Assembly: GCA_031272365.1 (NCBI GenBank)
Contig: JAISTX010000066.1
Location: forward strand, 1-64,000
Source: Eubacteriales Family XIII. Incertae Sedis bacterium
Lineage (GTDB): Bacteria > Bacillota > Clostridia > Peptostreptococcales > Anaerovoracaceae
Reading direction: 5' to 3'
Length of the DNA: 64,000 nt
A program made the translations under genes and the position numbers. Below, piece by piece: positions 47,473 through 63,974 of the stretch. A model generated the notes under the pieces. The model did not search any database. It had not been told where the DNA came from and saw nothing but the letters and a program-made list of their open reading frames with translations. How positions within the stretch are numbered: the first letter of the stretch is position 1; each line of letters begins with the position of its first letter.

Positions 47473-47527
47473 TTTATGGGTGATTTTTGTTGGGGTGGAA
47501 GATGGCTTTGATGGGTGATGAGTTTTG

Positions 47528-48586
47528 ATGGATGTTGTTCGGGTTGAATTGGGGGCATCCGCCTATGATGTGGTGATTTCCGAGGGGCTTTTTGCGGGGG
47601 GTTCCTGGCGCGCCTTGTTGGAAGGGCTGGCCGCTGATGGCGGGCCTCCCTTTTTTGTCAGCGACGAGCATGTCTGGCGGCTTTACGGGGATTTGTTTGA
47701 CGGGTTCGGCTCGGCTGTAGTCGCGCCCGGGGAGGAGCACAAAACGCTGGCCGATTTGAGCGCGCTCTTTGATGCTTTTGCTTCGTCGCGGCTTTCGCGC
47801 GGGGGGCTTGTGGTCGCGTTCGGCGGCGGGGTGGTCGGCGATATGGCCGGTTTCGCGGCGGCGTGCTGGATGCGCGGCGTGCGCTTCTGCCAGATCCCGA
47901 CGACGCTGCTCGCGATGGTCGATTCGTCGGTGGGCGGCAAGACGGCCGTCGACATCCCGGCGGGCAAGAATCTCGTCGGCGCGTTCCACCAGCCTTCGCT
48001 CGTGTTGTGCGACCCCGCGTTCCTCGCGACGCTGCCGGAGCGCGAAATCCGCTCCGGGATGGCGGAGGTGGTCAAGACCGGGGCGATTGCGTCGGAGGCT
48101 CTGTTCGGCCAGGTTGCCGCGTCGGCTGCGGCTGCGGCTGCCGCTTCCGTTTCCGCTTCCCTGATCGCGGCGTGCATCCGTTTCAAGGCCGGCGTCGTCG
48201 CGGAGGACGAGCGGGAGGGGGGGCTGCGAAAGATCCTCAATTTCGGGCACACCTTCGGGCACGCGATCGAGGTCAAATACGGCTTTTCCAGGTACACGCA
48301 CGGGGAGGCTGTCGCGGCAGGCATGCGCCTGGCGGCGGCGCTCGGCGAGCGGCTCGGCGTTACGGAGAAGGGCACGGCGGCGCGCCTCGGGGAGGTGTTG
48401 GACGCGTGCGGGCTGAAGGCGCGGGAATCTGCGGAAGGGCTGCTCCCGTATATGCGCGGCGACAAGAAGTCTTCCGCGGACGGCGTGGATCTCGTGCTGC
48501 TGAAGCGCATCGGGGAGCCGGCCGTCACGCCGCTTTCCTTCGCTGCGCTGGAGGACGCGCTGGACGGGGGGCTGGCGCCCGCATGA
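47528..48586 (+). CDS. aroB: 3-dehydroquinate synthase
   Basis: GGGVVGDMAGFAAACWMRGVRFCQIPTTLLAMVDSSVGGKTAVD; LNFGHTFGHAIE. Confidence 0.96.
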   Translation: MDVVRVELGASAYDVVISEGLFAGGSWRALLEGLAADGGPPFFVSDEHVWRLYGDLFDGFGSAVVAPGEEHKTLADLSALFDAFASSRLSRGGLVVAFGGGVVGDMAGFAAACWMRGVRFCQIPTTLLAMVDSSVGGKTAVDIPAGKNLVGAFHQPSLVLCDPAFLATLPEREIRSGMAEVVKTGAIASEALFGQVAASAAAAAAASVSASLIAACIRFKAGVVAEDEREGGLRKILNFGHTFGHAIEVKYGFSRYTHGEAVAAGMRLAAALGERLGVTEKGTAARLGEVLDACGLKARESAEGLLPYMRGDKKSSADGVDLVLLKRIGEPAVTPLSFAALEDALDGGLAPA

Positions 48587-49917
48587 CGGCGTCGTCCCCG
48601 TTTTTGCCTGCGGAGTTGGTCATCGACCGCTTCCCCTCCGGCACGGTGCGCGTGCCGCCTTCCAAGAGCCTGTCGCACCGCGCGGCGATCTGCGCGGCGC
48701 TCGCCGGCGGCGAAGCCGCCGGGGCGGTGGTGCGGGGGCTCGGCGACTCCGAGGACATCCGGGCGACGGTGCGCGGGATTGCGCGGATTGTTTCCCGTGA
48801 TGACGGGCAGCCGGTCGACTGCGGGGAGTCCGGCTCGACGCTGCGGTTCCTGATCCCCCTCGCGGCGATGGCCGGCGGCGCGTGGCGTTTCACGGGGCGG
48901 GGGCGGCTCCTGGAGCGGCCTTTGCAGGTCTACGCGGACGTCTTCCGTGCCCACGGCGGAGAGGGTTCTTATTTTATTCAAGAAGACGGGGAGGTGCGCG
49001 TGCGGGGGCCGCTGCTGCCCGGGGACTACCTCCTGCCGGGCGACGTCAGCTCGCAGTTTTTGACGGGGCTTTTGCTGGCGCTGCCGCTCGCGGCGGGGGA
49101 CAGCCGGTTGTCGCTCACGTCGGCGGCGGAGTCGGCGGACTACGTGCGGCTCACGGTGGACGTGATGCGGGCGTTCGGGGTGCGGGCGAACGAGGAGCGC
49201 GCGGCCGGGCAGGGCGCAGGCGCGGATGCCGATGCGGGAACTGCGGCTTCGGAGATGCGTGCTGATGCCAGTACAGAGGCTGCGGGACTTGAGACCCTTG
49301 CTTGCGGAGATGCGGTTGTGGCGGCGGATGGCTACCGGATCCCCGGCGGGCAGGCGTACGCGCCCGCTGCGTATACGGTCGAGGGCGACTGGTCGCAGGC
49401 GGCGTTCTTCCTGTGCGCGGCGGCGCTCGGCCGCGACGTGCGGGTGGAAGGGCTGCGGCCGGACAGCCACCAGGGCGACCGCCGGGCGGCGGCGCTCGTG
49501 GAGGCCATCCGCACGGGGCAGGGCACTGTCATCGACTGCCGGGACATCCCGGATCTGGTGCCGCCGCTGGCGGCGCTGGCCTGCTATGCGCGGGGGGTCA
49601 CGCGGTTCGTGAACGCGGGGCGGCTGCGCATCAAGGAGAGCGACCGGCTCGCCGCGCTCGCGCAGGAGCTTTCAAACCTCGGGGCGGGCGTGCGGGAGGA
49701 GGGCGACGCGCTCGTGGTCGCGGGCGTCGGGGACGGCCAGTCACCCACGGGCAGTGGCTTGCCGGGCGGCCGGGCCGACGCGCACGGCGACCACCGCATC
49801 GCGATGGCCGTGGCCGTGGCGGCGATCGGCTGCCGGAACCCCGTCCGCCTGACAGGCGCGGACAGCGTTGCCAAATCCTACCCCCATTTCTGGGAGGACT
49901 TCCTGAAGGCGCGCTGA
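48583..49917 (+). CDS. aroA: 3-phosphoshikimate 1-carboxyvinyltransferase (EPSP synthase)
   Basis: PPSKSLSHRAAI, CGESGSTLRFLIPLA, LPGDVSSQFLTGLL, RIKESDRLAALA, HGDHRIAMA. Confidence 0.95.
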   Translation: MTASSPFLPAELVIDRFPSGTVRVPPSKSLSHRAAICAALAGGEAAGAVVRGLGDSEDIRATVRGIARIVSRDDGQPVDCGESGSTLRFLIPLAAMAGGAWRFTGRGRLLERPLQVYADVFRAHGGEGSYFIQEDGEVRVRGPLLPGDYLLPGDVSSQFLTGLLLALPLAAGDSRLSLTSAAESADYVRLTVDVMRAFGVRANEERAAGQGAGADADAGTAASEMRADASTEAAGLETLACGDAVVAADGYRIPGGQAYAPAAYTVEGDWSQAAFFLCAAALGRDVRVEGLRPDSHQGDRRAAALVEAIRTGQGTVIDCRDIPDLVPPLAALACYARGVTRFVNAGRLRIKESDRLAALAQELSNLGAGVREEGDALVVAGVGDGQSPTGSGLPGGRADAHGDHRIAMAVAVAAIGCRNPVRLTGADSVAKSYPHFWEDFLKAR

Positions 49918-49944
49918 AAAGTGCGGCCCGGTTGAAAAGGTTGC

Positions 49945-49962
49945 CGGATGCTTGCGCATCCG
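49945..49962. repeat. Palindrome CGGATGC-TTGC-GCATCCG
   Basis: Same core as the palindrome upstream of lepA. Confidence 0.6.
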
Positions 49963-49980
49963 CCGAATGATTTGATTTTT

Positions 49981-50128
49981 GGATTCCGGGTCAGCGGTAG
50001 AGTGCAGCGCTTTAGCGCGTTGCAGACCTACCCGGCAGCTTGCTGCCGTTGGTAGGTCGCATTCGAGGATTGCGCGGCTTTAGCCGCAATGCAATCTACC
50101 GTGGCACTCTACCGCTGACCCGGAATCC
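49981..50128. repeat. 148-bp cruciform element with 25-bp perfect terminal inverted repeats
   Basis: GGATTCCGGGTCAGCGGTAGAGTGC (49981-50005) and exact reverse complement (50104-50128); three internal hairpins. Confidence 0.92.
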
Positions 50129-50146
50129 ATGCTCCAATCAAAGCCA

Positions 50147-50199
50147 GGCGCGCGGAGGCGCGGCTGGCAACCACTCATCTGACAGCGCGGCAGGCAACC
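50147..50199 (+). repeat. 53-bp direct repeat, copy 1
   Basis: 48/53 identical to 50428-50480. Confidence 0.85.
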
Positions 50200-50248
50200 A
50201 CTCAAGCGGGTTTTCTCATGCCGTGCAGCAAATCCGGCGTTCCGTGGC

Positions 50249-50380
50249 CAAAAAACGCCGGGATGTGCAGATTCCCAAGGCGCAGGGCGCGATTTTTGTC
50301 ATAAAGCGAAAACCCGTATCACGTACACGTCGTTTTCCGGGATATTGCCGTGCACAGGATGCACATCCCGCCATTTTTTG
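50249..50380. repeat. 132-bp element with 21-bp inverted repeats
   Basis: CAAAAAACGCCGGGATGTGCA (50249-50269) vs TGCACATCCCGCCATTTTTTG (50360-50380), 19/21 complementary. Confidence 0.8.
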
Positions 50381-50427
50381 TCCACAGAAAGGGCGTTTTG
50401 CTGACAGGCGGCGGTGGCAGCATGGAC

Positions 50428-50480
50428 GGCGCGCGGGGGCGCGGCGGGCAACCACTCATCTGGCAGCGCGGCGGGCATCC
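50428..50480 (+). repeat. 53-bp direct repeat, copy 2
   Basis: GGCGCGCGGGGGCGCGGCGGGCAACCACTCATCTGGCAGCGCGGCGGGCATCC. Confidence 0.85.
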
Positions 50481-50485
50481 GCACC

Positions 50486-51028
50486 CTACGGTGCCGGCCG
50501 GTCGAAGAAGACGGACTTGCCGGAGGCTGACAGCGGGAGGCCCACGATCATCTTGTACTCCCCGAGCAGCCCGAGGCTCGCCGCCGCCTGGCCGATCGAG
50601 AGCATCATGCGGTTGTCGACGCGGGCGTCCGCCGCGAGCGACGCGGCCGAGCCGAGCGCGATCCCGAGGTCCATGGCCGTGAAGGCGCACGCCGCGCCCG
50701 CCTTCGCGCAGGCCGCGCAGTCCGCGAAGCCGCAGAGCCGGCATATCTCGTTCAGCCCGCGCACCTGGTATTTCGCCCCAATGAGCACGACGGCTTCGCT
50801 CGCGTCCACGCCCGCCGCATCCCGGCAGAAGAACCCCCCCGCCTCGCCGAGCGCCTCGCCGACCTTGCGCATCTCCGCCGCGAGCCGGTCCTTGTCCTCG
50901 CCCGTGAGGACGGCCGTCTCGAGGTGGTCGACGCCGCAGGCCTTCGGAGCCGTCCGCGCGGCCGCGCACATGCTGTAGGCGAGGTTTACAATGGCCGATT
51001 GCTCGGCGGTTTTCGAATCAACAAACAT
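50486..51028 (-). CDS. DUF2148 ferredoxin-domain protein
   Basis: ARTAPKACGVDHLETAVLTGEDKDRLAAEM..., ICRLCGFADCAACAKAGAACAF. Confidence 0.85.
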   Translation of the reverse strand: MFVDSKTAEQSAIVNLAYSMCAAARTAPKACGVDHLETAVLTGEDKDRLAAEMRKVGEALGEAGGFFCRDAAGVDASEAVVLIGAKYQVRGLNEICRLCGFADCAACAKAGAACAFTAMDLGIALGSAASLAADARVDNRMMLSIGQAAASLGLLGEYKMIVGLPLSASGKSVFFDRPAP

Positions 51029-51195
51029 AGGTCATCCCTCCTGTCTTCAGCAGCCTTGGTTTGATTCAATTTTATCATAAAAAAAATCAACAAATTCTAT
51101 AAAAAATGTTGAACATTTGCATCCGATTTGATGTATAATGGAGCTGCATTTTGGGATATTGCCGGTTTTCATAAATACATAGCAGGAGAAATGCC

Positions 51196-53379
51196 ATGCA
51201 AAAGAACTCTTATCTTTGGCGTTGCGCTGTTTGCGTGATTGTTGTCGCGCTGCCTTGTGCGTTGCTGCCCAGGATGAAATTGCTGCCGGCAAACGCCGCG
51301 GCGGCGCCCCGGGGGGCGTCGGATTTCAACGCGTTGCAATTGCCGGAAGAAGGCGCCTCCTCTGAACCGGCAGAAGAAAACCAGGCGCTGCTGGAAGCGG
51401 TCAACGCGGCGGAGGAAGCGAGGGCGGATGCAGCGGACGCAAGGTCGGAGTTGCAGGAGCTGTCAAGCGAAATGGTTGACATCAAAAAGGAGATAGCCGC
51501 GCTGAAAACCGAGCTAAGAACGCTAAGGGGCGGTCAAGCAGAGGCATCCATCCATGATGGCGTCATCCCGGGCCTCGGCAAGGCGAACTTCCCGGAGATC
51601 GACGGTAGCACGGCCTGCCAGCCACTGATCGCAGCGCTCTACGCAGCGGCCTGCGGCGTGGACAAAGAAGCGGCGGAGGCCGCTATCGCGGTAAGCGGCA
51701 CGAACGCGGCATGGAATCAAATGAATCCATACAGCGAGGACAGCGCCAACAAGCTCATCATAGCCTACGAACCGCAGGGCGGGGTGCCGAAAGCCGGCGT
51801 GCAGTCCAGCCCCCTCGGCCGTGACGGGCTTGTATTCCTGACTGGGAAAAGCAACCCGGTGGGCAGCTTGACCGCGGAGCAGCTGAAAGACATCTACGCC
51901 GGGCGCACTGTGGACTGGTCAAAGGTCGGGGGCGAAGCCGGGCCAATCACGGCATACCAGCGGAACCCGGAGAGCGGCAGCCATGTGATGCTGCTGAAAT
52001 GCCTCATGGGGGAGGAAACGCTCACGGAACCCCCCTCTGAGGAATTGATAGCAGAGATGGCCGGGTTGATCAACGTTGTCTCGGAATTTGAAGGCGGCGG
52101 GGATGCCATCGGCTATTCCGTTTACTACTATGCGGACCAGATGTACGCGGCGCCGGGCATCAAGATGCTCGCGGTGGATGGCGTGGCGCCCACAACCGAT
52201 TCCATCGCGGACGGCACGTACCCGCTGACAAACGATTTCCATATGGCGCTTCTGGACAAGGCGCCGGAAGGCTGTTCTGCCCGCCTGCTGTACGATTGGC
52301 TGCTCACGCCGGAGGGGGCGGCTTTGCTGGAAGAAAACGGGTATGTGCCTGTGGCGAAATCAGCAGCATCCGCCCGAAAGATCGAAGTCCCCGAGGAAGT
52401 CGCCGCCCGCGCCGCAGAGGCGGAGCCGATAGAAGGCCCGCACTCGGAATGGCTGTATCAGATCAATCGCGCAAGCGACACCTACACGATTTCCGGCTAT
52501 GAAAATGAAGGGAAACATGATACCTGGAGCGGTGCCTCGGGAAAAACATATTCGACGATTGTCGACCACGAGGGGAATATCATCTTTGAAGGCGAAAATT
52601 TCAATCGAATCTACAATGAGTCTGCCACAGATGTGATTGCCATTTCGCAAAAGAACCTCAAAGGTGAAATCACCAGATCGAGGCTGTACTCTGTCACAGG
52701 CAAACTGCTCCGTGATTGGGAAGCCGTAGACTACACAGGCGGGCCGTTGCATTTCCTCATGGCTGTTGAGTGGGATGAAGGCGCGCGAAAGGATTTTTAT
52801 AGACTGGTTGACCCCTCCACCGGGAAACGGGCGAACGATTTCAAGCTGTACCGCTATGGATACTATTGGCCTGACCGATATGACTATATCTACACGGACG
52901 ATGGTGGCTTTGTTGCGATGTCTTTCCCTTCTGATGGAGAAGATGCCGGCCCAGTCGTGAAATTTGATGCAAATGGAAAACCTGTTCCTTTCAAAGAGGG
53001 GGAGGCGTCAGACAAATCTGTGCTCGAGCATGGAATGGACGATCCGATGTCACCCTTGGACTACTATAAGCAATATACCAATTCAGATGAAAGCGCCGAC
53101 TCCGAATCGATCGCCTACGAGGCAATCCTATCGAAATGGGCCGAGAATACGGGCGTTACCGTTTACTTCGATAGCAACAGCATGCCCCGTTATTTCACTT
53201 CGGGCCAAGGCACCGTTGACATCTACGGCATGGACGGAAAGCTCCGAATCGCCAATGTGGTCGTGGAAGAATATGCTCCGGACCGCCTCGTCGCCGTGAA
53301 GGACGGGTGGCACGGGCTCATGGACCTGGACGGCAACTGGCTCTACAAAGAGAGCGTGTACAGCGTGCTGATGGATTGA
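51196..53379 (+). CDS. Membrane-anchored PstS-like/WG-like protein, paralogue 1
   Basis: N-terminal hydrophobic helix, coiled coil, IDGSTACQPLIAALY...GRDGLVFLTGKSNPVGSLTAEQLKDIYAGRTVDWSKVGG, C-terminal HGLMDLDGNWLYKESVY. Confidence 0.82.
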   Translation: MQKNSYLWRCAVCVIVVALPCALLPRMKLLPANAAAAPRGASDFNALQLPEEGASSEPAEENQALLEAVNAAEEARADAADARSELQELSSEMVDIKKEIAALKTELRTLRGGQAEASIHDGVIPGLGKANFPEIDGSTACQPLIAALYAAACGVDKEAAEAAIAVSGTNAAWNQMNPYSEDSANKLIIAYEPQGGVPKAGVQSSPLGRDGLVFLTGKSNPVGSLTAEQLKDIYAGRTVDWSKVGGEAGPITAYQRNPESGSHVMLLKCLMGEETLTEPPSEELIAEMAGLINVVSEFEGGGDAIGYSVYYYADQMYAAPGIKMLAVDGVAPTTDSIADGTYPLTNDFHMALLDKAPEGCSARLLYDWLLTPEGAALLEENGYVPVAKSAASARKIEVPEEVAARAAEAEPIEGPHSEWLYQINRASDTYTISGYENEGKHDTWSGASGKTYSTIVDHEGNIIFEGENFNRIYNESATDVIAISQKNLKGEITRSRLYSVTGKLLRDWEAVDYTGGPLHFLMAVEWDEGARKDFYRLVDPSTGKRANDFKLYRYGYYWPDRYDYIYTDDGGFVAMSFPSDGEDAGPVVKFDANGKPVPFKEGEASDKSVLEHGMDDPMSPLDYYKQYTNSDESADSESIAYEAILSKWAENTGVTVYFDSNSMPRYFTSGQGTVDIYGMDGKLRIANVVVEEYAPDRLVAVKDGWHGLMDLDGNWLYKESVYSVLMD

Positions 53380-53419
53380 AGGAAAAATAACCGGATGGGT
53401 AAAGAGGAGGTTTGCAAAG

Positions 53420-55666
53420 ATGATGAAAACGGTTTGGCGGCGGGTGGCCGGGTGCGCGATTCTGGTGGCGGTGTTCGCCTTTTTCCTGTGGCTGTCCTCG
53501 CTTTCTTTTGAGGCTTACGGGCATGCCACTTCCCCGGCCGCTTCGGACACCGAAGGGTTGCAGCTTCAAAACGAAAGCGATGTGCCCGAAACGAACGAAG
53601 GGGAGCCCGGGGCGTCGGGCGACGTGGCCGTGCTGGAAGAGGAGATGGAGGCGCTGGAGGCGGACATCGCCGCGCTGGAACGCTTGCAGACCTTGGGCGA
53701 TGTGGCTGCGCGCGCGGAGGAGGAGACGGAGCAGGCCAACGTGACCACGCGGGAAGTGCGGTCCTTGCTCCTGGAGATAGAAAACGCCTTGGCGGATCTG
53801 CGGAACCCGTCGAGCGCCGCCGCGCCGGCGCCGGCCGCGCAGGATGGCGTTATCCCGGGCATCACAAAGGAAAACTTCCCTGTGATCGACGGCAGCACGG
53901 CCTGCCAGCCGCTGATCGCGGCGCTCTACGCGGCGGCATGCGGGGTGGATCGGGAAACGGCGGCGTCGATGATCACCGTGAGCGGCACGAGCAGCGCCTG
54001 GAAGGGGATCGCCAACAGCGATGCGGACATCATCCTCGCCTACGAGCCGGACAGCGGATTCCAGAAGGGCAGGGCGGCGGCCATCGGGCGGGACGGCCTC
54101 GTCTTCCTGACCGGGAAGGCCAACCCCGTGAAGGGCCTGACCTCGGCGCAGCTGAGGGACATCTACGCCGGGCGCACCACGGACTGGTCGCAGGTCGGCG
54201 GCGCGTCCGGGCCGATCACGGCCTACCAGCGCAACGCGGACAGCGGCAGCCAGGTGATGCTGACCAAATGCCTCATGCAGGGGGAGGCGCCGATGGACCC
54301 GCCGTCCGAGATGGTGGTGGGCGCCATGGACTATATGCTGGAGCTGCTGGATTTTGACGCGGGCGGGGGCTCCATCGGCTATTCCGTCTACTACTACGCG
54401 AACAAGATGTACGAGGCGCCGAACGTCAAGATGCTCGCCGTGGACGGCGTCCTGCCGAGCAGCGAGACGATCGCGGACGGCACCTACCCCTTGACAAACG
54501 ACTTCTACGTGGCCGTCCGCCCGAATCTGGAGGAGGGGGATCCGGCCCGCCTGCTGTACGACTGGCTGCAGTCGCCGGAGGGGGCGGCGCTGCTCGAGGA
54601 ATGCGGCTACGTGCCGACCCGGCAGACGTCCGGCGCCGCCGGCGCAAGCGGGCGTGTCGAAGTACCAAAGGAGGTGGCGGAAGCGGCTGCGGCGGCAGAG
54701 CCCATCAAGGGCGCGCACCCGGAATGGCTGTTTCAGATCGTGCAGCCCGTTCAGGATGTGACGAAATACTATATCAGGAGTTCAACGATCGTCGACCATG
54801 AAGGGAATGTTGTGCTGAGCGGCAGGGGGCTGTCCATTATTGTCAATGTGGACAATACGAAGGCCTTGGCCATAGCGCAGGAGCAGATCTTCGAACAGGA
54901 GGATGAGAACGGCGAGATAGACTATGATTTCAAATCACGGCTCTACTCGATCAAGGGCAAATTGCTGCGCGACTGGGAGGCTGTGGAATACAGATCCGGG
55001 CCGGGGCGGTTTGTGCTGGTAAACAAGAAAATGGGGTCAGTCGGATGCACCCTGCTGGATCCAATCACGGGCGAAGTGCCGGACACAGGCCTGATTTTCG
55101 ATAAAGTCTTGGCTGGAGACGGCCCTGTTTTTGTCTTGACAGATGATGGCGGCTTCTATGCCCAATTGCAACACTCCGAAGAGGACGGGGTGGAATACGA
55201 ATCCATCATGAAATATGACAAGGACGGGAATGCAGAGCCCCCAGAGAAAGGCGGCTATTACAACAAAGACGATTTGGACTGGCCGGATGACGTATCGATC
55301 ACGCAAGAGAATTTAGCCGAAGGTTCTTGGATGGATTTGGCGCAGCAGATGGAAGAGAGTTTGTACATCGTCCCGGCTTTCCGGAACTATCTGGAGGGGT
55401 ATTCCAACCTTGCAATGTATTTCGGAAACGATCAATCCCCGCGGTATATCCTTCAGGATTTGGAGAAAACCACGGGTTACGGATACCGTTATTGCAATGT
55501 ATACAAAATGAATGGGGAACGCATCGCGGACAATGTTTACTCGGATGACTTCGGCACATTCGCCCCGGATCGGCTTGTCGTGTATGATGACGGCTACCAC
55601 GGCCTCATGGACCTGGACGGCAACTGGGTATACAAGGAGAGCGTCTACACGGCATTGATGGATTGA
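53420..55666 (+). CDS. Membrane-anchored PstS-like/WG-like protein, paralogue 2
   Basis: Same architecture: VIDGSTACQPLIAALYAAACGVD...GLTSAQLRDIYAGRTTDWSQVGG...GLMDLDGNWVYKESVYTALMD. Confidence 0.82.
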   Translation: MMKTVWRRVAGCAILVAVFAFFLWLSSLSFEAYGHATSPAASDTEGLQLQNESDVPETNEGEPGASGDVAVLEEEMEALEADIAALERLQTLGDVAARAEEETEQANVTTREVRSLLLEIENALADLRNPSSAAAPAPAAQDGVIPGITKENFPVIDGSTACQPLIAALYAAACGVDRETAASMITVSGTSSAWKGIANSDADIILAYEPDSGFQKGRAAAIGRDGLVFLTGKANPVKGLTSAQLRDIYAGRTTDWSQVGGASGPITAYQRNADSGSQVMLTKCLMQGEAPMDPPSEMVVGAMDYMLELLDFDAGGGSIGYSVYYYANKMYEAPNVKMLAVDGVLPSSETIADGTYPLTNDFYVAVRPNLEEGDPARLLYDWLQSPEGAALLEECGYVPTRQTSGAAGASGRVEVPKEVAEAAAAAEPIKGAHPEWLFQIVQPVQDVTKYYIRSSTIVDHEGNVVLSGRGLSIIVNVDNTKALAIAQEQIFEQEDENGEIDYDFKSRLYSIKGKLLRDWEAVEYRSGPGRFVLVNKKMGSVGCTLLDPITGEVPDTGLIFDKVLAGDGPVFVLTDDGGFYAQLQHSEEDGVEYESIMKYDKDGNAEPPEKGGYYNKDDLDWPDDVSITQENLAEGSWMDLAQQMEESLYIVPAFRNYLEGYSNLAMYFGNDQSPRYILQDLEKTTGYGYRYCNVYKMNGERIADNVYSDDFGTFAPDRLVVYDDGYHGLMDLDGNWVYKESVYTALMD

Positions 55667-55687
55667 TGGAAGGATAGGAGAATCGAA

Positions 55688-58024
55688 ATGTTGACGAAAT
55701 CGGTTTGGCGGCGGTGCGCCGGTGTCGCGGTAATAGCCGCAGTGGTGTGCCTGATCATCGGCGCTGCGTCGCTCCCTTTGGCGGCACGGGCTCCCCAGGC
55801 CTCGCGGGCCCCCTACTCAACTTCGGTCCTCGATTGGGCGCCGCCCCCGGATACCGGCGTCGCGGCCGGCGCAGCGGATGCGGGGCAGGCGCCGCCGGAG
55901 CAGGGGGATCTGGTAGCGCTGGAGGCGGAGCTTGCGGCGCTGAAGGAGAGGGTCGCCGCGCTGGATGGCGCGGACAGCGCGTATGAAGCCGTGACGCACG
56001 CGCAGCAGGCGGCGAAAGAGGCGGCCGAGTCCGCGCAGGCAACGAAGTCGCTGCTGGAGGATGTGAAAAGCTACCTGAAGGAATTGAGTGCCGCAGAGGG
56101 CGATACGCAGGAAATAATGCCCATTCAGGACGGTGCCATCCCGGGCCTCGGCAAAGCGAACTTCCCCGTGATCGATGGCAGCACGGCCTGCCAGCCGCTG
56201 ATCACAGCCCTCTACATGGCGGCCTGCGGGGTGGATGCGGAAACGGCGGAGGCGGCGGTTTCAACCAATGGCACAAGCGCCGCATGGAAGGGGGTCGACC
56301 CTTCGGCCGGAAATGCCTCGGCCGACATCATACTCGCCTACGAGCCGGAGGGCGGGGTGCCGGAAAATGGCGTGGAGTCGGTTCCGATCGGGCGGGACGG
56401 CCTCGTCTTCATCACCGGCAAAAACAACACCGTGAAGAGCCTGGCCGCGGACCAGCTCCGGGGCATCTACGCCGGCCGCATCACGGACTGGTCGGAAGTC
56501 GGCGGCGCGGCACAGCCAATCATGGCCTACCAGCGCAACACGGACAGCGGCAGCCACGCGATGCTGCTGAAATGCCTCATGCAGGGCGAAACCCTGGCCG
56601 ACCCCCCGTCCGAGATGGTGGCGGGCTCCATGGACTATATGCTGTCCCTGCTGGACTTCGACGCCGCAGGGGACTCGCTCGGCTATTCCGTCTACTACTA
56701 CGCGGACAAGATGTACGAGGCCCCGAACGTCAAGATGCTCGCCGTGGACGGCGTCGCGCCCTCCAACAAGACGATCGCGGACGGCTCCTACCCGCTGACG
56801 AGCGACTTCTATCTTGCCATCCGGAAGGACGCGGGCAAGAACGCCCCGGCGCGCCTGCTGTACGACTGGCTGCGGACGCCGGAGGGAGCGGCACTGCTTG
56901 AGGAATGCGGCTATGTGCCGGTGGCCCAGGACGCCACGGCTCCGGCGACCGAGGTCGGCTCTGCGGCCGATGGGCAAAGCGGCAGGATCGACATCCCGCC
57001 GGAGGTAGCCGAAGCCGCCGCCTCCGCCGCGCCCGTGAAAGGCGCGCACCCGGAGTGGCTGTTCCAGATCAACCGGCCATCGGATATTCTCAGCTCGACT
57101 TACAGCTATAGCCTGTTTTCCACCATCGTCAACCATGAAGGGGATGTCGTCATGAGCGGCAATAGCCTGTCCATTATTCAGGGCACCGATGGCGCGACAG
57201 CGATTGCGCAGCAGAAGCTCTTTGAGCAGACGGACGAGTCCGGCACAGTAAACTACAAGGAAGGCGAGACAAACTACGTCTTCAAATCGCGGCTCTATTC
57301 AGTCAAAGGCAAGCTCCTCGTCGACTGGGAGGAGGTGAGTTATGAAAACGGGCCAGGCCGGTTTGTCATGGTGCAAGAATATAAGAATAATAACAGAGTA
57401 TTCACGCTGCTCGACCCGATTACAATGACTCGTCCAAATACCGGTGACTTGGGCTATACGTTACCAATGATCAGCAGTGAGTTTAATTTTGTCAAGGCAG
57501 AGGATGGCGGTTTCTATGCTAGATTGGCCACACCGAATGGGGGGAGAGAAGGTGCAATTATAAAATTTGATAAGAATGCAAACCCCATTCCTCCAGCGGA
57601 GGGTGAGTCCTATGATGATTCCATTATGAGCAACAGTACTGCATACACGGAGAAGGAAGAAGGTCAGGCCGAAGATCCTGTGTACAAGGCTGCGTCGAAT
57701 ATGGGCGATGGATTGTACTGCATCCCAACAATGGATTTGCCTGGTTTTGGTCATGCAATCTATTTCGACGACGCGGCTCCCCGCTACATCCTCCAGGAAC
57801 AGCCGAAAGCCGGCTTCGAACCGATCGGTGTGGAAGAGGCCTACAACCTGTACAACATGTCCGGCGAGCTCATGGCCGAGGGCATCCGCTTCATACTCCC
57901 CCTTGAATACGAATGCCTCGCCCCGGACCGCCTCCTCGTCGTGAAGGACGGCTACCACGGCCTCATGGACCCGGGCGGCAACTGGGTCTACAAGGAAAGC
58001 ATCTTCAAAGCACTGGCGGATTAG
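55688..58024 (+). CDS. Membrane-anchored PstS-like/WG-like protein, paralogue 3
   Basis: Same architecture: VIDGSTACQPLITALYMAACGVD...SLAADQLRGIYAGRITDWSEVGG...GLMDPGGNWVYKESIFKALAD. Confidence 0.82.
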   Translation: MLTKSVWRRCAGVAVIAAVVCLIIGAASLPLAARAPQASRAPYSTSVLDWAPPPDTGVAAGAADAGQAPPEQGDLVALEAELAALKERVAALDGADSAYEAVTHAQQAAKEAAESAQATKSLLEDVKSYLKELSAAEGDTQEIMPIQDGAIPGLGKANFPVIDGSTACQPLITALYMAACGVDAETAEAAVSTNGTSAAWKGVDPSAGNASADIILAYEPEGGVPENGVESVPIGRDGLVFITGKNNTVKSLAADQLRGIYAGRITDWSEVGGAAQPIMAYQRNTDSGSHAMLLKCLMQGETLADPPSEMVAGSMDYMLSLLDFDAAGDSLGYSVYYYADKMYEAPNVKMLAVDGVAPSNKTIADGSYPLTSDFYLAIRKDAGKNAPARLLYDWLRTPEGAALLEECGYVPVAQDATAPATEVGSAADGQSGRIDIPPEVAEAAASAAPVKGAHPEWLFQINRPSDILSSTYSYSLFSTIVNHEGDVVMSGNSLSIIQGTDGATAIAQQKLFEQTDESGTVNYKEGETNYVFKSRLYSVKGKLLVDWEEVSYENGPGRFVMVQEYKNNNRVFTLLDPITMTRPNTGDLGYTLPMISSEFNFVKAEDGGFYARLATPNGGREGAIIKFDKNANPIPPAEGESYDDSIMSNSTAYTEKEEGQAEDPVYKAASNMGDGLYCIPTMDLPGFGHAIYFDDAAPRYILQEQPKAGFEPIGVEEAYNLYNMSGELMAEGIRFILPLEYECLAPDRLLVVKDGYHGLMDPGGNWVYKESIFKALAD

Positions 58025-58063
58025 CACTCCCCCAGAAAGCTCTGCTTTTCTTCACTTGGCCAC

Positions 58064-59143
58064 TCACACCAGCGCCCACGGCATGGTTGCCCAGACGAGG
58101 ATCTTGGCGATGCGGTCTTCGCCCGGCAAAGCGAGGAAGGCGATGTTGATGCCGTCTTTGTGGAAGATCGCCGCGCTATAGCCGGCTGCCTCCAGTTCGG
58201 ACTGCGCGTACAAGGCGTGCTTTTGCGACATGAAGACCGTCTCCGCCTCCCCGTCCTCATACCCGTAGGCGGCCATCGCGGCCCGCGCGTCCGCAAGCGG
58301 ATCCCCTGTGCCCACGCCGAACACATGGCCGCCGGATTCCAGGACAACGTGCGAGGCAACGTAGCCATCCTTGCCGGGCGTGGGGTTGTCGCGGAAGTAG
58401 TAGCAAACGCCATACACGGCGCCGCTCCCGTCCGTCAGGGCGCGGGCGTCTTCGCTGGAGAACACTTCGATATAATGCTCCCGGTTGTACGCCGTGAAGG
58501 CGCTCATCCTCGTCGGCCAGCCATGGCTCGAATGCTGGAAGAGCGGTACATCGAAACTGCATCCCTGGTTGATTTCCTCAACCGTCGCGTAGTCTTCCTC
58601 GTCGGCGGAATCGCTGGAGAAGAAGTAGAAGCGCCAAATCGTCCCGGCCTGCGTGTCGAGCAGAAACGCAATCCGTACGCTACCCTTGCGGAATTGCCGG
58701 AAGAAAGGCACTGCGGAAGGTTCTTCCTCATAGCCTCTGGCGCTCATCGCCTCGTCGATGCCGGCGCTGCCCCCGCCTATGGCCAGCCCAAAGATTTCGC
58801 CGTCCTCTGCGGAGGCCACCATCATGACTGCCCGCTGCGCTCGATCGCCATACCAGTGCTCGGCAGGTGCGAAACTCGCCCGGGCGGCAGGCCCTCCGTC
58901 CGCGCCCGGAATGTCCAGGATGTCCCAACCTTCGACAGCATCGTCCAGCTCGCCCGGCGTGGACACGAGAAGGGCGACGCCAAGGTCGCTATGGTCGCCA
59001 AGCTCCCGCGCCGCCGCTTTCTGCGCCACCTGTTTCAATGCCACTGCAGGCCACATATCCGCGAATGGAAAAGTGCCGCAGCACCCGGTGAGGGTCACCA
59101 CCAGCGCCAATACCAGCGCCGTGCACAAGGCCAGCCTCCTCAT
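58064..59143 (-). CDS. Lipoprotein, paralogue 1 (internally duplicated module)
   Basis: MRRLALCTALVLALVVTLTGC lipobox; ATGA overlap with upstream paralogue. Confidence 0.8.
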   Translation of the reverse strand: MRRLALCTALVLALVVTLTGCCGTFPFADMWPAVALKQVAQKAAARELGDHSDLGVALLVSTPGELDDAVEGWDILDIPGADGGPAARASFAPAEHWYGDRAQRAVMMVASAEDGEIFGLAIGGGSAGIDEAMSARGYEEEPSAVPFFRQFRKGSVRIAFLLDTQAGTIWRFYFFSSDSADEEDYATVEEINQGCSFDVPLFQHSSHGWPTRMSAFTAYNREHYIEVFSSEDARALTDGSGAVYGVCYYFRDNPTPGKDGYVASHVVLESGGHVFGVGTGDPLADARAAMAAYGYEDGEAETVFMSQKHALYAQSELEAAGYSAAIFHKDGINIAFLALPGEDRIAKILVWATMPWALV

Positions 59144-60276
59144 GGCGAAATCTCCGATGCCCAGACGAGGATCTTGGTGATGCGGTCTTGGCCCGGCGAA
59201 GCGAGGAAGGCGATGTTGATGCCGTCTTTGTGGAAGATCGCCGCGCTATAGCCGGCAGCTTCCAGCTCGGACTGCGCGGACAAGGCGTGCTCCTCAGACG
59301 GGAAAACCGTCTCCCCCTCCGCGTACCTGTAGGCGGCCATCGCCGCGCGCGCATCCGCAAGCGTGTCCCCGATGCCCACGCCAAACACATGGCCGCCGGC
59401 CTCCAGCACGACGTGCGAGGCAACAGTGCCGATGGAGTGGTAGTAGATACACAGGTAGTAGTAGCAAACGCCATATACCGTGCCGTTCCCGTCCATCAGG
59501 GCGTAGGCAAGGGCGCTGGCGGGCATGGCGGCGTTGTCTTTCGGGTCGTAGCCGGCGGTGAAGGCCTCCAGATCCGTAGGCCAGCCATGGCTCGAATGCT
59601 GGAGGAGCGGCATTTTGAAATTGCAGCCCTGCCGGATTTCCTGCACAGCCGCTTGGATGCTTTCCTCCGGGTAGTCCTCTCTCTTCAATTTATAGCCAAA
59701 GAATAGGTCATCCGGTGAGCGGAAGTAACCGTTGGACGGTGACAGGAAAAAGATGTAGAAGCGCCAAATCGTCCCGGCCTGCGCGTCGAGGAAAAACGCG
59801 ATGTGCACGCCCGCCTTGCGGTATAGCCGGCAATAGGGCATCTCGCTCGGTTCTTCTTCGAAGCCTCTGGCGGCCATCGCTTCGGCGACGCCGTCGCTGC
59901 TCCCGCCCGTGGCCAGCCCGAAGATTTCTGCGCCCTCTGCGGGGACCACTATGTCGACTTCCCGCTGCGCCCTGCAATCGTGCGCAGGGGAAAACCTCGC
60001 CCAGATGGCCGCCTCGCCGTCCGCGCCCGTCACATCCATGTAGTCCCAGCCTTCTACGTCCTCGGAAAGCCCATCGGGCATGGGCTCGAGGAAGGCAACG
60101 CCGAGGTCGCTGCCGGCGTTGAGCTCCTGCGCCGCCGCTTCCCGCGCCTGCGCTGTGACCGCCATCGCCGTGTTTGCCGGCGGGTCGGCGCCGCAGGCCG
60201 CAAGCGGCAGGGCCAGCATCGCGCACAAGGCCGGCATGCCGAAGGCATTTATTGTTCGATATTTTCTGTGTCTCAT
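59140..60276 (-). CDS. Lipoprotein, paralogue 2 (internally duplicated module)
   Basis: MRHRKYRTINAFGMPALCAMLALPLAAC lipobox; collinear with paralogue 1. Confidence 0.8.
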   Translation of the reverse strand: MRHRKYRTINAFGMPALCAMLALPLAACGADPPANTAMAVTAQAREAAAQELNAGSDLGVAFLEPMPDGLSEDVEGWDYMDVTGADGEAAIWARFSPAHDCRAQREVDIVVPAEGAEIFGLATGGSSDGVAEAMAARGFEEEPSEMPYCRLYRKAGVHIAFFLDAQAGTIWRFYIFFLSPSNGYFRSPDDLFFGYKLKREDYPEESIQAAVQEIRQGCNFKMPLLQHSSHGWPTDLEAFTAGYDPKDNAAMPASALAYALMDGNGTVYGVCYYYLCIYYHSIGTVASHVVLEAGGHVFGVGIGDTLADARAAMAAYRYAEGETVFPSEEHALSAQSELEAAGYSAAIFHKDGINIAFLASPGQDRITKILVWASEISP

Positions 60277-60380
60277 ATAGAAGGAAACCTCTCCATGCGT
60301 GATATCATTACATGCGAGAAGCCACTGTATCATCCACTTTGTATTATGATATAATACATCGTTCAAACGGGAGGTTTGAG

Positions 60381-61466
60381 ATGAACAGCTTTGGGGAACG
60401 ATTTCGGGTGACGATTTTTGGAGAATCGCACGGCGCCGGGGTGGGCGTGGTGGTGGATGGCATGCCCGCCGGCTACAAGATCGACTCGGTGCATATCGCG
60501 TATGAGCTGAGCCGGCGCGCGCCGGGGCACAGCCCCTTTTCGACGGAGCGCGTGGAGGCGGACGAGGCAGAGGTCGTCTCCGGCGTCGTCGGCGGCGTGT
60601 CGACGGGCGCGCCGATCGCATGCATTATTTGGAATACGGACACGCGCCCGGGGGACTACCGGGCGGAGCTGCGCCCGGGCCAGGCGGACTGGACGGCGCT
60701 GTTGAAATACAAGGGGTTCGACGACCGGCGCGGGGGCGGGCGGTTTTCGGGCCGGCTCACGGCGGGGCTCGTGTTCGCTGGCGCGCTCGCCAAGCAGGTG
60801 CTCGCGCGGCGGGGCGTGGAGATCTGCGGGCGCATCAAGGCGATCGGCGGGGACTCGGACGACATCGACCTGTCGGAGACCGTCGCCCGGCCGGACACGC
60901 GCGTCATGCTGCGGCACATCGCCCACAAGCGGTTCCCGTGCGCCGACGAGGTCGAAGAGGAGTTCACGGGCACGATCCTTTTGGCGAAGGACGAGATGGA
61001 TTCCGTCGGCGGCGTCGTCGAGACGGTGTGCTTCGAGCTGCCCGGCGGCGTGGGCGAGCCGTTCTTCGCCTCCCTCGAGAGCCACATCGCCAGGATGCTG
61101 TTCTCCGTGCCGGCCGTGAAGGGCGTGGAGTTTGGCAGCGGGTTTCACATCGCGGACCTGCTCGGGAGCGAGGCCAACGACCCGATCGTGTTCCGCGACG
61201 GGAAGCTGGCCAGCATCACCAACAACAACGGCGGCATCCTCGGCGGCATCTCCAACGGGATGCCCATCATCGTCCGCGCGGCGATCAAGCCGACGCCGAC
61301 GATCGGCATCGTGCAGCGGACGGTCGACCCCCGCACGATGGAGGAGACCGTGACCGCGTTCGGCGGAAGGCACGACCCGTGCATCGTGCCGCGCGCGGTG
61401 CCCGTGGTGGAGTCGGCGGTGGCGCTCGCTGTGCTGGACCTCATGATGGTCGGGGGATTTGCTTGA
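60381..61466 (+). CDS. aroC: Chorismate synthase
   Basis: MNSFGERFRVTIFGESHGAGVGVVVDGMPAG; GRFSGRLTAGLVFAGALAKQ; SD gggagg. Confidence 0.97.
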   Translation: MNSFGERFRVTIFGESHGAGVGVVVDGMPAGYKIDSVHIAYELSRRAPGHSPFSTERVEADEAEVVSGVVGGVSTGAPIACIIWNTDTRPGDYRAELRPGQADWTALLKYKGFDDRRGGGRFSGRLTAGLVFAGALAKQVLARRGVEICGRIKAIGGDSDDIDLSETVARPDTRVMLRHIAHKRFPCADEVEEEFTGTILLAKDEMDSVGGVVETVCFELPGGVGEPFFASLESHIARMLFSVPAVKGVEFGSGFHIADLLGSEANDPIVFRDGKLASITNNNGGILGGISNGMPIIVRAAIKPTPTIGIVQRTVDPRTMEETVTAFGGRHDPCIVPRAVPVVESAVALAVLDLMMVGGFA

Positions 61467-62002
61467 GGGGGCAGAGGGGCACCGTGCTGATCGGGATGCC
61501 GGGGAGCGGCAAAACAGAGCTCGGCCGGCAGGCTGCCGGGATTTTGTCCTTGCCTTTCTTGGACGCGGATGCGATGATAGAGGGGCAGGAAGGGATGACG
61601 ATCGCGGGGATCTTCGACCGCGTAGGGGAAGAAGGATTCCGCAAACTGGAGACGGAAACGCTACGGGGCTTGCTGGACGGGGCGGCGCCTGAAGGCGCGG
61701 GGGCTTTCGTGCTGGCCACCGGGGGCGGCGTCGTGACGCGGGCAGAAAACCGCAGCATACTGACCGCATTGGGCCGGGTGGTGTACATCCGGCGGGGGAT
61801 CGAGGCAATAGCATCCTCTGTTGCGTACGGCGGCACACGCCCGCTGCTCGGCAATCAGGATATGTTATTCAAATTGTGGGCGGCGCGCAGGCCGCTGTAT
61901 GAAGATTGGGCGGAGGACACCTTCGCCGTGGTGGAGGGCGAGGCGATCGGCGAAGCGGCCACGCGCCTGGCGGAGCTTATCGCAGAACGGGGACAACAAT
62001 GA
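61463..62002 (+). CDS. aroK: Shikimate kinase (TTG start overlapping aroC TGA)
   Basis: TVLIGMPGSGKTELGRQAAGILSLPFLDADAMIE; FVLATGGGVVTR; GTRPLL. Confidence 0.92.
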   Translation: MRGQRGTVLIGMPGSGKTELGRQAAGILSLPFLDADAMIEGQEGMTIAGIFDRVGEEGFRKLETETLRGLLDGAAPEGAGAFVLATGGGVVTRAENRSILTALGRVVYIRRGIEAIASSVAYGGTRPLLGNQDMLFKLWAARRPLYEDWAEDTFAVVEGEAIGEAATRLAELIAERGQQ

Positions 62003-63141
62003 ACGACGCGGAAAGAATGAAGAGTGATGCAAAGGTGCGGCAGCTGCGGATTGCGCTGGCGGTCGTGATCGTCATCGCGGTGGTGCTCGGCATCCTGCTC
62101 GGGACGAGGAGCACCAAGAGCGCCGAGGCGGGCGGCAGCAGCGGCAGCGCCGAGCCGGCGCCCATCGAGACGACGTGGCTGGCGGCGGGCGAGCCGCTGG
62201 CGTCGGTGAACGGCGTGGTCATCGGCAGCGACGTCGTGAGCGGCGTGGTATCGATGTATGAGTATATGAGCTACGGGATGTTCATCGAGGATTACTACGA
62301 AGACTCGGCCAACGGCATGACAGAGGCGGACTACAACGACCAAAAATTGATTTCTGTCAATGACATTCTCGTCAACTTCTTCGTGCCCACGGAGGTGCTG
62401 TCGCAGCATTTCGAGTACAAGGATATGCTGTCGGACGAGACGAAGGCCGAGATCGAGGAGGAAATGGCCAACGTATACACGGACGAAACGGCGACGGCGG
62501 AGTTGAGCGCGCACGGCGTGACCGAGGAAATGGTGCGGTTCTACCTCGACTCGGTGGCGCTCATGGACGTGTTCCGGACGGAGACGATGGAGACGAACCC
62601 CGTCACGGATGCGGAGGTCCAGGCGTTCTACGACGAGAACCCGGACTACTTCGTGGTGCCGATGAGCTTCGAGGCGAGCCACATCCTTATCGAGGACGCG
62701 GAACACACGCCGGAGAAGCTGGCGGAGATCGAGGCCATCCTCGCGCGGGTGCAGGCGGGCGAGGATTTCGCCGAGCTCGCGAAGGAGTACAGCGAGGACT
62801 CGGGCAGCGCGGCGAATGGCGGCGAGCTCGGCTCCTTCTCCGAGGGGGACATGGTCGAGCCGTTTGAGGAGGCGTGCAAGGCGCTGAACCCCGGCGAGGT
62901 CTCGGGCATCGTGGAGACGGACTACGGCTACCACATCATCAAACTCACCTCGAAGACGGACGCGGGCGTCACGCCGGTCGAGGACGTGAGCGAGAGCATC
63001 AAGGAATACCTCGCCGACGAGAAGGCGACCGAGGCCCTGAACGCGCTCGTGGATGCGGCGGACATCGAGTATTTCGGCGTGACCGTGCCGGAGACGGGCC
63101 TGCCGCCGGTGTCGCTCGAGGAACTGGCGGTCGCGCAATAA
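61999..63141 (+). CDS. Membrane-anchored parvulin-type peptidylprolyl isomerase (PrsA/SurA-like)
   Basis: N-terminal TM; FEASHILIEDAEHTPEKLAEIEAIL...GGELGSFSEGDMVEPFEEACKALNPGEVSGIVETDYGYHIIKL. Confidence 0.92.
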   Translation: MNDAERMKSDAKVRQLRIALAVVIVIAVVLGILLGTRSTKSAEAGGSSGSAEPAPIETTWLAAGEPLASVNGVVIGSDVVSGVVSMYEYMSYGMFIEDYYEDSANGMTEADYNDQKLISVNDILVNFFVPTEVLSQHFEYKDMLSDETKAEIEEEMANVYTDETATAELSAHGVTEEMVRFYLDSVALMDVFRTETMETNPVTDAEVQAFYDENPDYFVVPMSFEASHILIEDAEHTPEKLAEIEAILARVQAGEDFAELAKEYSEDSGSAANGGELGSFSEGDMVEPFEEACKALNPGEVSGIVETDYGYHIIKLTSKTDAGVTPVEDVSESIKEYLADEKATEALNALVDAADIEYFGVTVPETGLPPVSLEELAVAQ

Positions 63142-63974
63142 TGGGCCGACGCGCTTACTGCCTCATAGGGGATCCGGTGGCGCATTCGCTGTCGCCGCTG
63201 CTCCACGGGACGGCATTCGCGCTGCTCGGCGCGGACGCTGTTTACGAGAAAATCCGCGTCGCGCCCGAATCCCTCGAAGATTTTGTGGCAGAAGGCGCGT
63301 TTGACGGCTATAATATAACCATACCGCACAAGGAGCGCGTCATCCCCCTGCTCGATGAGCTGGCAGGCGATGCGCTTGCTGCGGGGGCGGTCAACACGGC
63401 CGTCCGCGATGGCGGGAAGACGGTTGGCTACAACACAGACATGGAAGGGCTGCTGCTCGCGCTGCGCGGGCAGGGGCGCGGCTACGCGGGCAGCGTGGTG
63501 TGCGTGCTCGGCACGGGCGGCGCGGCGCGCGGGTGCGCGAAGAAGGCGGCGCTGGAAGGCGCGCGGGACGTGCGCATCGTGGGCCGCAGCCGCGAGAAGG
63601 CGGAAGGCATTTTGCCCGGTGCCTACGCGGGGCCGCTCTCGGAAGAGGCGGTGCGCGGCGCGGACATCTTCGTGAACGCGACGCCGCTCGGGATGGCCGG
63701 CTATGCGGAGGATTTCGCGGACACCGCGTTCCTCGGCGGGCTGCCGGCGCACGCGCTCGTCTACGACTGCGTGTACACGCCCCGTGAGACGACGCTCGTC
63801 CGTGCGGCGCGGGCGCGAGGGCTGTCGGCGGAGTCCGGGCTGTCCATGCTCGTGTGGCAAGGGCTGCTCAGCGAGGCCCTTTGGGGGGTCGCTGGAAGGG
63901 ACGCTTTGCTGGGCGGTGAGTTGTACCAAGAGGTTTTTGGCGTATTGGATGAAAAATTGAGAATTGAGAACTGA
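63141..63974 (+). CDS. aroE: Shikimate dehydrogenase
   Basis: CLIGDPVAHSLSPLLHGTAF, GYNITIPHKE, GAVNTAVRDGGKTVGYNTDMEGL, VLGTGGAARG. Confidence 0.95.
   Translation: MGRRAYCLIGDPVAHSLSPLLHGTAFALLGADAVYEKIRVAPESLEDFVAEGAFDGYNITIPHKERVIPLLDELAGDALAAGAVNTAVRDGGKTVGYNTDMEGLLLALRGQGRGYAGSVVCVLGTGGAARGCAKKAALEGARDVRIVGRSREKAEGILPGAYAGPLSEEAVRGADIFVNATPLGMAGYAEDFADTAFLGGLPAHALVYDCVYTPRETTLVRAARARGLSAESGLSMLVWQGLLSEALWGVAGRDALLGGELYQEVFGVLDEKLRIEN

Follow-up and report, generated by a model that had tools for sequence, protein, structure and literature searches.

Tandem genes joining an orphan PstS-like binding domain to a WG/DUF5046-type domain: a possible transporter-independent surface module in an Anaerovoracaceae bacterium

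Three tandem genes encode fusion proteins with predicted surface exposure

What do three adjacent genes for PstS-like proteins do when no ABC transporter genes lie beside them? This question is raised by a 64,000-nucleotide stretch of contig JAISTX010000066.1 from a gut-type member of the Anaerovoracaceae (Clostridia), which is referred to here as the window. An earlier note, made from the letters alone, had described three tandem paralogues composed of an N-terminal membrane helix, a coiled coil, a PstS-type periplasmic-binding domain (PBP) and a WG-like C-terminal domain, and had suggested a ligand-sensing or scavenging surface system. The three open reading frames (ORFs) were recovered exactly, together with every motif quoted for them, and comprise the following features.

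51196..53379, + strand: fusion gene 1, 727 aa (TM/signal helix, coiled coil, PBP, WG/DUF5046-type domain)
51370..51525, + strand: coiled coil of gene 1 (residues 59-110; heptad pattern, helix in a low-confidence model)
51553..52359, + strand: PBP (PstS-like) domain of gene 1, about residues 120-388
52429..53376, + strand: WG/DUF5046-type domain of gene 1 (independent partner profile, two ends: E 2.2e-10 and 4.7e-17)
53420..55666, + strand: fusion gene 2, 748 aa, architecture as gene 1
53837..54625, + strand: PBP domain of gene 2, about residues 140-402
54716..55663, + strand: WG/DUF5046-type domain of gene 2 (profile E 1.6e-20 and 2.2e-14; model pLDDT 73, pTM 0.75)
55688..58024, + strand: fusion gene 3, 778 aa, architecture as gene 1
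56150..56929, + strand: PBP domain of gene 3, about residues 155-414
57044..58021, + strand: WG/DUF5046-type domain of gene 3 (profile E 1.6e-17 and 1e-15)

Spacers of 40 and 21 bp separate the genes, and a Shine-Dalgarno-like AGGAG precedes each ORF. Copies 2 and 3 share 46% identity with copy 1. Among the three copies, identity amounts to 25-27% in the N-terminal linker and coil, 63-72% in the PBP and 38-50% in the C-terminal region, and falls to 20-32% in the middle of the C-terminal domain. The proposal of greatest divergence in the C-terminal domains is therefore only partly right: they vary more than the PBP, but the linker and coil are the most divergent part of the proteins.

Each protein contains a single hydrophobic segment, located at the N-terminus, and none past residue 45. 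A heptad stretch of 49 residues with hydrophobic residues in 14 of 14 a/d positions was detected in the product of gene 1, and the pattern is weaker in copies 2 and 3. Residues 59-110 of gene 1 form a helix in the full-length model, which was computed from a three-row alignment and is of low confidence (pLDDT 33.7). All three binding domains match PBP_like_2 above the Pfam cut-off (E 3e-19, 2.9e-24 and 2.3e-24 for genes 1, 2 and 3), and their nearest solved structures are phosphate-binding proteins, e.g. 4q8r and 4gd5. No ABC permease or ATPase gene was identified among the adjacent ORFs of the window, as had been noted before, and the possibility of ABC genes hidden beside the array was rejected, none being seen there. 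Taken as a whole, these features are best explained, with about an even chance of being correct, by predicted surface-exposed PBP-propeller-like fusions that are membrane-anchored or secreted and lack a sizeable cytoplasmic part; the placement of the binding domain outside of the cell is supported.

Kinship of the C-terminal domain with WG/DUF5046 proteins

Pfam searches detected no WG (WG_beta_rep) match in the three window proteins, and their DUF5046 matches remained below the cut-off (E 0.003-0.14; 11.9-17.4 bits vs. 25). Relatives were more informative. A profile constructed only from separate partner genes, which are described below, matched the first part of the window domains with E 1.6e-20, 1.6e-17 and 2.2e-10 and the last part with E 2e-14 to 5e-17. 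As the iterated version of this profile drifted onto signal peptides, a fixed profile was used from which the N-terminal signal region had been cut off. Within the aligned partner family, DUF5046 was found in 21 of 25 and WG_beta_rep in 8 of 25 members at E<=0.01, and some of these matches exceed the curated cut-offs. Because a profile free of window sequences yields E-values of 1e-10 to 1e-20 and members of the family pass the Pfam cut-offs, the C-terminal domain is, on the basis of profile kinship, truly WG/DUF5046-related. The WG-like assignment is thereby upheld through relatives and not through Pfam matches of the window proteins themselves; the contrary outcome envisaged in the earlier note, a domain unrelated to WG repeats, was not observed. 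Although homologous to WG_beta_rep (PF14903) and DUF5046 (PF16465) by the independent profile, the window copies differ in lying under the Pfam cut-offs, in following a PBP and in being shortened in the middle. Most of the middle of the long partner form, which spans about 440 model positions, has no counterpart in the window domains; in length they resemble the short partners of about 300 aa, e.g. L096 and L085.

An AlphaFold model of the gene-2 domain (see the feature list for its scores) is mostly beta. Nine PDB structures matched this model with E<1e-3 and all of them are of the propeller type, including the methylamine dehydrogenase (MADH) heavy chain, AADH, AztD, NirN and tetrathionate hydrolase. 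Since the TM-scores to these solved propellers are weak, at most 0.35, a beta-propeller-like fold is regarded as likely and not as proven. Among the papers searched, none mentioned DUF5046, and those listed for WG repeats did not concern these bacterial proteins.

The binding domains belong to a clade distinct from PstS

The gene neighborhood of related binding proteins was compared in 61 related genomes by relating matches of the window profile (PBP part, down to 29.7 bits) to pstA/C-type matches of TIGR00974; a small number of weak matches that were fragments or second pieces of one gene were excluded. None of the 19 matches above 95 bits was located near pstA/C, compared with every one of the 39 matches scoring 29.7 to 82 bits, which lie within 2.5 kb of such genes; the 95-bit cut was chosen after the gap between 99.6 and 81.9 bits had been seen, the match lists were combined by hand and some contigs are short. 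Both kinds of PBP occur at separate places in the genomes G016, G004, G036, G038, G049, G018 and G002. In a maximum-likelihood tree, 16 true PstS proteins stand apart from 48 clade members with support values of 100/99, in the presence of long branches. The loop sequence R-x3-SGS[QH] is found in 84 of 99 clade members and in 0 of 16 PstS proteins, most of which carry R-x3-SGT. TIGR02136 matches the window proteins with 78.7-98.3 bits, below its curated cut-off of 206.6. Searches with the E. coli Pst proteins at the loci of the module returned weak PstA/C matches only.

Sequence and gene order set the PBP clade apart from true PstS and show it to be unlinked to Pst genes. The close homologues are located outside of ABC operons and not, as the alternative in the earlier note would have it, as PstS components within them, and both the anatomy described there and the inference that import is not the role of these proteins are largely supported. 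The likeness to PstS (TIGR02136/PF12849) consists of the periplasmic-binding fold, the N-terminal GST motif and the anion-binding loop R-x3-SG-[ST], both motifs being retained in the PBP; the differences are the separate clade, an SGS[QH] instead of an SGT loop, the missing pst linkage, the TIGR02136 score and the fused C-terminal partner domain. A looser form of the loop, R/K-x3-[SAT]G-[STA], is kept in 98 of 99 clade members. The residues of the anion loop and the GST motif are phosphate contacts in PstS structures, and phosphate is a candidate ligand from the motif only.

The genome of the window contains six PBP_like_2 matches and two PHO4 (PiT) carriers. Neither pstA or pstB over cut-off nor a Na/Pi cotransporter was found in this assembly, which is 89% complete and from which a Pst transporter could be missing.

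Separate gene pairs and the probable origin of the fusions

The search for the domain combination uncovered, in addition to another fusion, many separate adjacent gene pairs that the earlier note had overlooked. The window's genome itself contains such a pair: on contig C66, a gene for a 544-aa lipoprotein-like protein directly precedes a separate PBP lipoprotein gene. Its product shares the linker and the C-terminal end with the window proteins, and the separate PBP contains no stretch matching the coiled coil of gene 1. The same gene order is present in a relative, the Clostridiales MAG G016 (record WRMW01000001). From 80 loci gathered by PBP patterns, 74 PBP genes were delineated. A partner-family gene is located directly upstream on the same strand of 28 of these 74 genes, which is not a clade-wide rate of pairing as the loci were sampled by similarity to the window, and 13 of 74 carry C-terminal extensions of at least 200 aa.

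The PBP-WG fusion at L135 is independent of those in the window (Pfam WG E 6.5e-10; hhalign E 2.5e-7), and L125 of Lachnoclostridium phytofermentans is probably another one, based on an hhalign match with E 5e-4 and a probability of 33%. Extensions of the L079/L086/L104 type did not match the partner profile significantly and were not counted as WG fusions. The C-terminal profile detected only this genome and G016 among 200 genomes of the window's family (2/200), and DUF5046 was found only in the window's genome among 200 genomes of the order. Most paired examples originate from Firmicutes outside of this family, within which the partner is rare. A contig scan with the three-copy alignment identified no relatives and the broader alignment A4 did; none were found on viral contigs, and plasmids contained distant PBP matches only.

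Several other arrangements were observed. At L102:3-5846 and L111:1-5844, four to five DUF5046-type genes in tandem directly precede a PBP gene. L054:684-2873 (- strand), which comes from a genome of the same genus as the window, encodes a PBP joined to a NADase-translocation F5/8-type C domain. At L056:5993-7795 (+ strand), a PBP is located behind an N-terminal propeller-like region. In several genomes of the window's family, lipoproteins of 520-600 aa with DUF3298 or weak PdaC similarity are encoded after or beside the PBP (L057:6228-7802, L058:6693-8342, L061:7620-9431 and L062:2836-4572). These lipoproteins possibly represent a second kind of recurrent PBP partner. On either side of the module, no third component was found to recur beside PBP and WG/DUF5046-type partner.

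In the tree, the three window copies group most closely with one another and are adjoined by the C66 copy and L071. The order of domains in the window, PBP first and propeller second, is the reverse of the separate gene pair. As the two parts exist as separate adjacent genes on C66, in G016 and in many Firmicutes, the window genes appear to be fusions of a pre-existing pair that were later triplicated. The simplest history starts from a partner-PBP pair whose parts were fused in the opposite order and acquired the coiled coil, after which two duplications took place.

A possible function without a dedicated transporter

The recurrent pairing of PBP and propeller suggests an interplay between the two domains. 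In the proposed mechanism, the surface PBP would bind a small anion (phosphate, a phosphorylated metabolite or an oxyanion metabolite), the coiled coils would bundle copies of the protein and ligand-driven closure of the PBP would alter the way in which the PBP contacts the propeller. Such a module could then sense, buffer or hand on its ligand without an ABC transporter of its own. A transporter-independent surface module, made of an orphan PstS-like PBP and a dedicated WG/DUF5046 propeller-like partner, is the reading favored here, and the sequence comparisons leave it roughly evenly balanced between right and wrong. Its wider form is put forward more tentatively: orphan clade and propeller may constitute a widespread two-part extracellular receptor of Firmicutes that works apart from transporters and currently bears a phosphate-uptake name, and which in the window would be fused and oligomerized by coiled coils to give three receptors with different propeller faces.

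A different possibility is that the propeller passes a nutrient to the PBP, or the reverse, and thereby feeds a carrier or ABC transporter encoded elsewhere. The constant pairing of the two domains fits such a ligand hand-off, which has a precedent in the transfer of zinc from the beta-propeller protein AztD to the solute-binding protein AztC (PMC6689063). AztD is also among the best structural matches of the C-terminal model, but this match is weak and holds for propellers generally. The resemblance is an analogy and not membership: both systems would pair a propeller-like protein with a solute-binding protein outside of the cytoplasm, whereas the window module belongs to another class of solute-binding proteins and is not accompanied by aztAB-like transporter genes. 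Given that a transporter gene is absent at the loci, hand-off is considered unlikely. It is likewise improbable that the proteins are pure surface scaffolds or adhesins in which the PBP fold serves as a structural or protein-binding module devoid of a small-molecule ligand. Fusion of a PBP relative to the F5/8-type C domain, pairing of others with PdaC/DUF3298-like lipoproteins and the pronounced variability in the middle of the C-terminal domain would suit this role; the pocket loop conserved clade-wide would be unexpected in it. The idea of an ordinary PstS with an extra domain that supplies phosphate to an ABC importer, Pst or another, encoded at an unlinked locus draws on the PBP_like_2 fold, on the phosphate-binding nearest structures and on pst operons elsewhere in the genomes of several relatives, but is very unlikely in view of the separate clade, the pst-linked PstS that relatives with a pst operon carry of their own, the lack of pstA/pstB over cut-off in the window's genome and TIGR02136 scores of 79-98 bits against 206.6.

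The large PstS-like clade, which occurs in gut and rumen Firmicutes and in E. coli isolates, appears to lie outside of phosphate import. If the propeller-paired receptor is real, phosphate-uptake annotations of its members, and inferences drawn from them, would be wrong. A common, undescribed surface module would become testable, with the window genes providing a single-chain version of the pair.

A relative in Escherichia coli and the surroundings of the array

A tractable relative exists in E. coli: in isolate H15, a PBP of the orphan clade is encoded between glgP and glpD (L161:3882-5390) and is followed by three hypothetical genes. The intact protein scores 300.9 bits with the clade profile, compared with 15.0 bits for E. 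coli PstS (best single domain), and its RefSeq name is 'PstS family phosphate ABC transporter substrate-binding protein'. A 2-kb stretch with this gene is held to at least 80% in 1,760 of 5,426 complete E. coli genomes; K-12 contains only the remnant yzgL at this place (NC_000913 3563724-3564005). The protein is of the same orphan PBP type as those in the window but differs in its anchor of about six TM-like segments, in the lack of a WG domain and in the three genes without functional names that follow it.

According to the ORF reading, positions 47525-63974 of the window contain the array, a DUF2148 gene and two lipoprotein-like ORFs within a run of aromatic-amino-acid genes, with aroB and aroA before and aroC, aroK, a parvulin-type isomerase gene and aroE after. 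The two lipoprotein-like ORFs (58064-60129, - strand) are adjacent paralogues that are convergent with the array and match no Pfam family. The third-position GC content of the three fusion genes is 0.68-0.79, compared with 0.81-0.92 for most of their neighbors.
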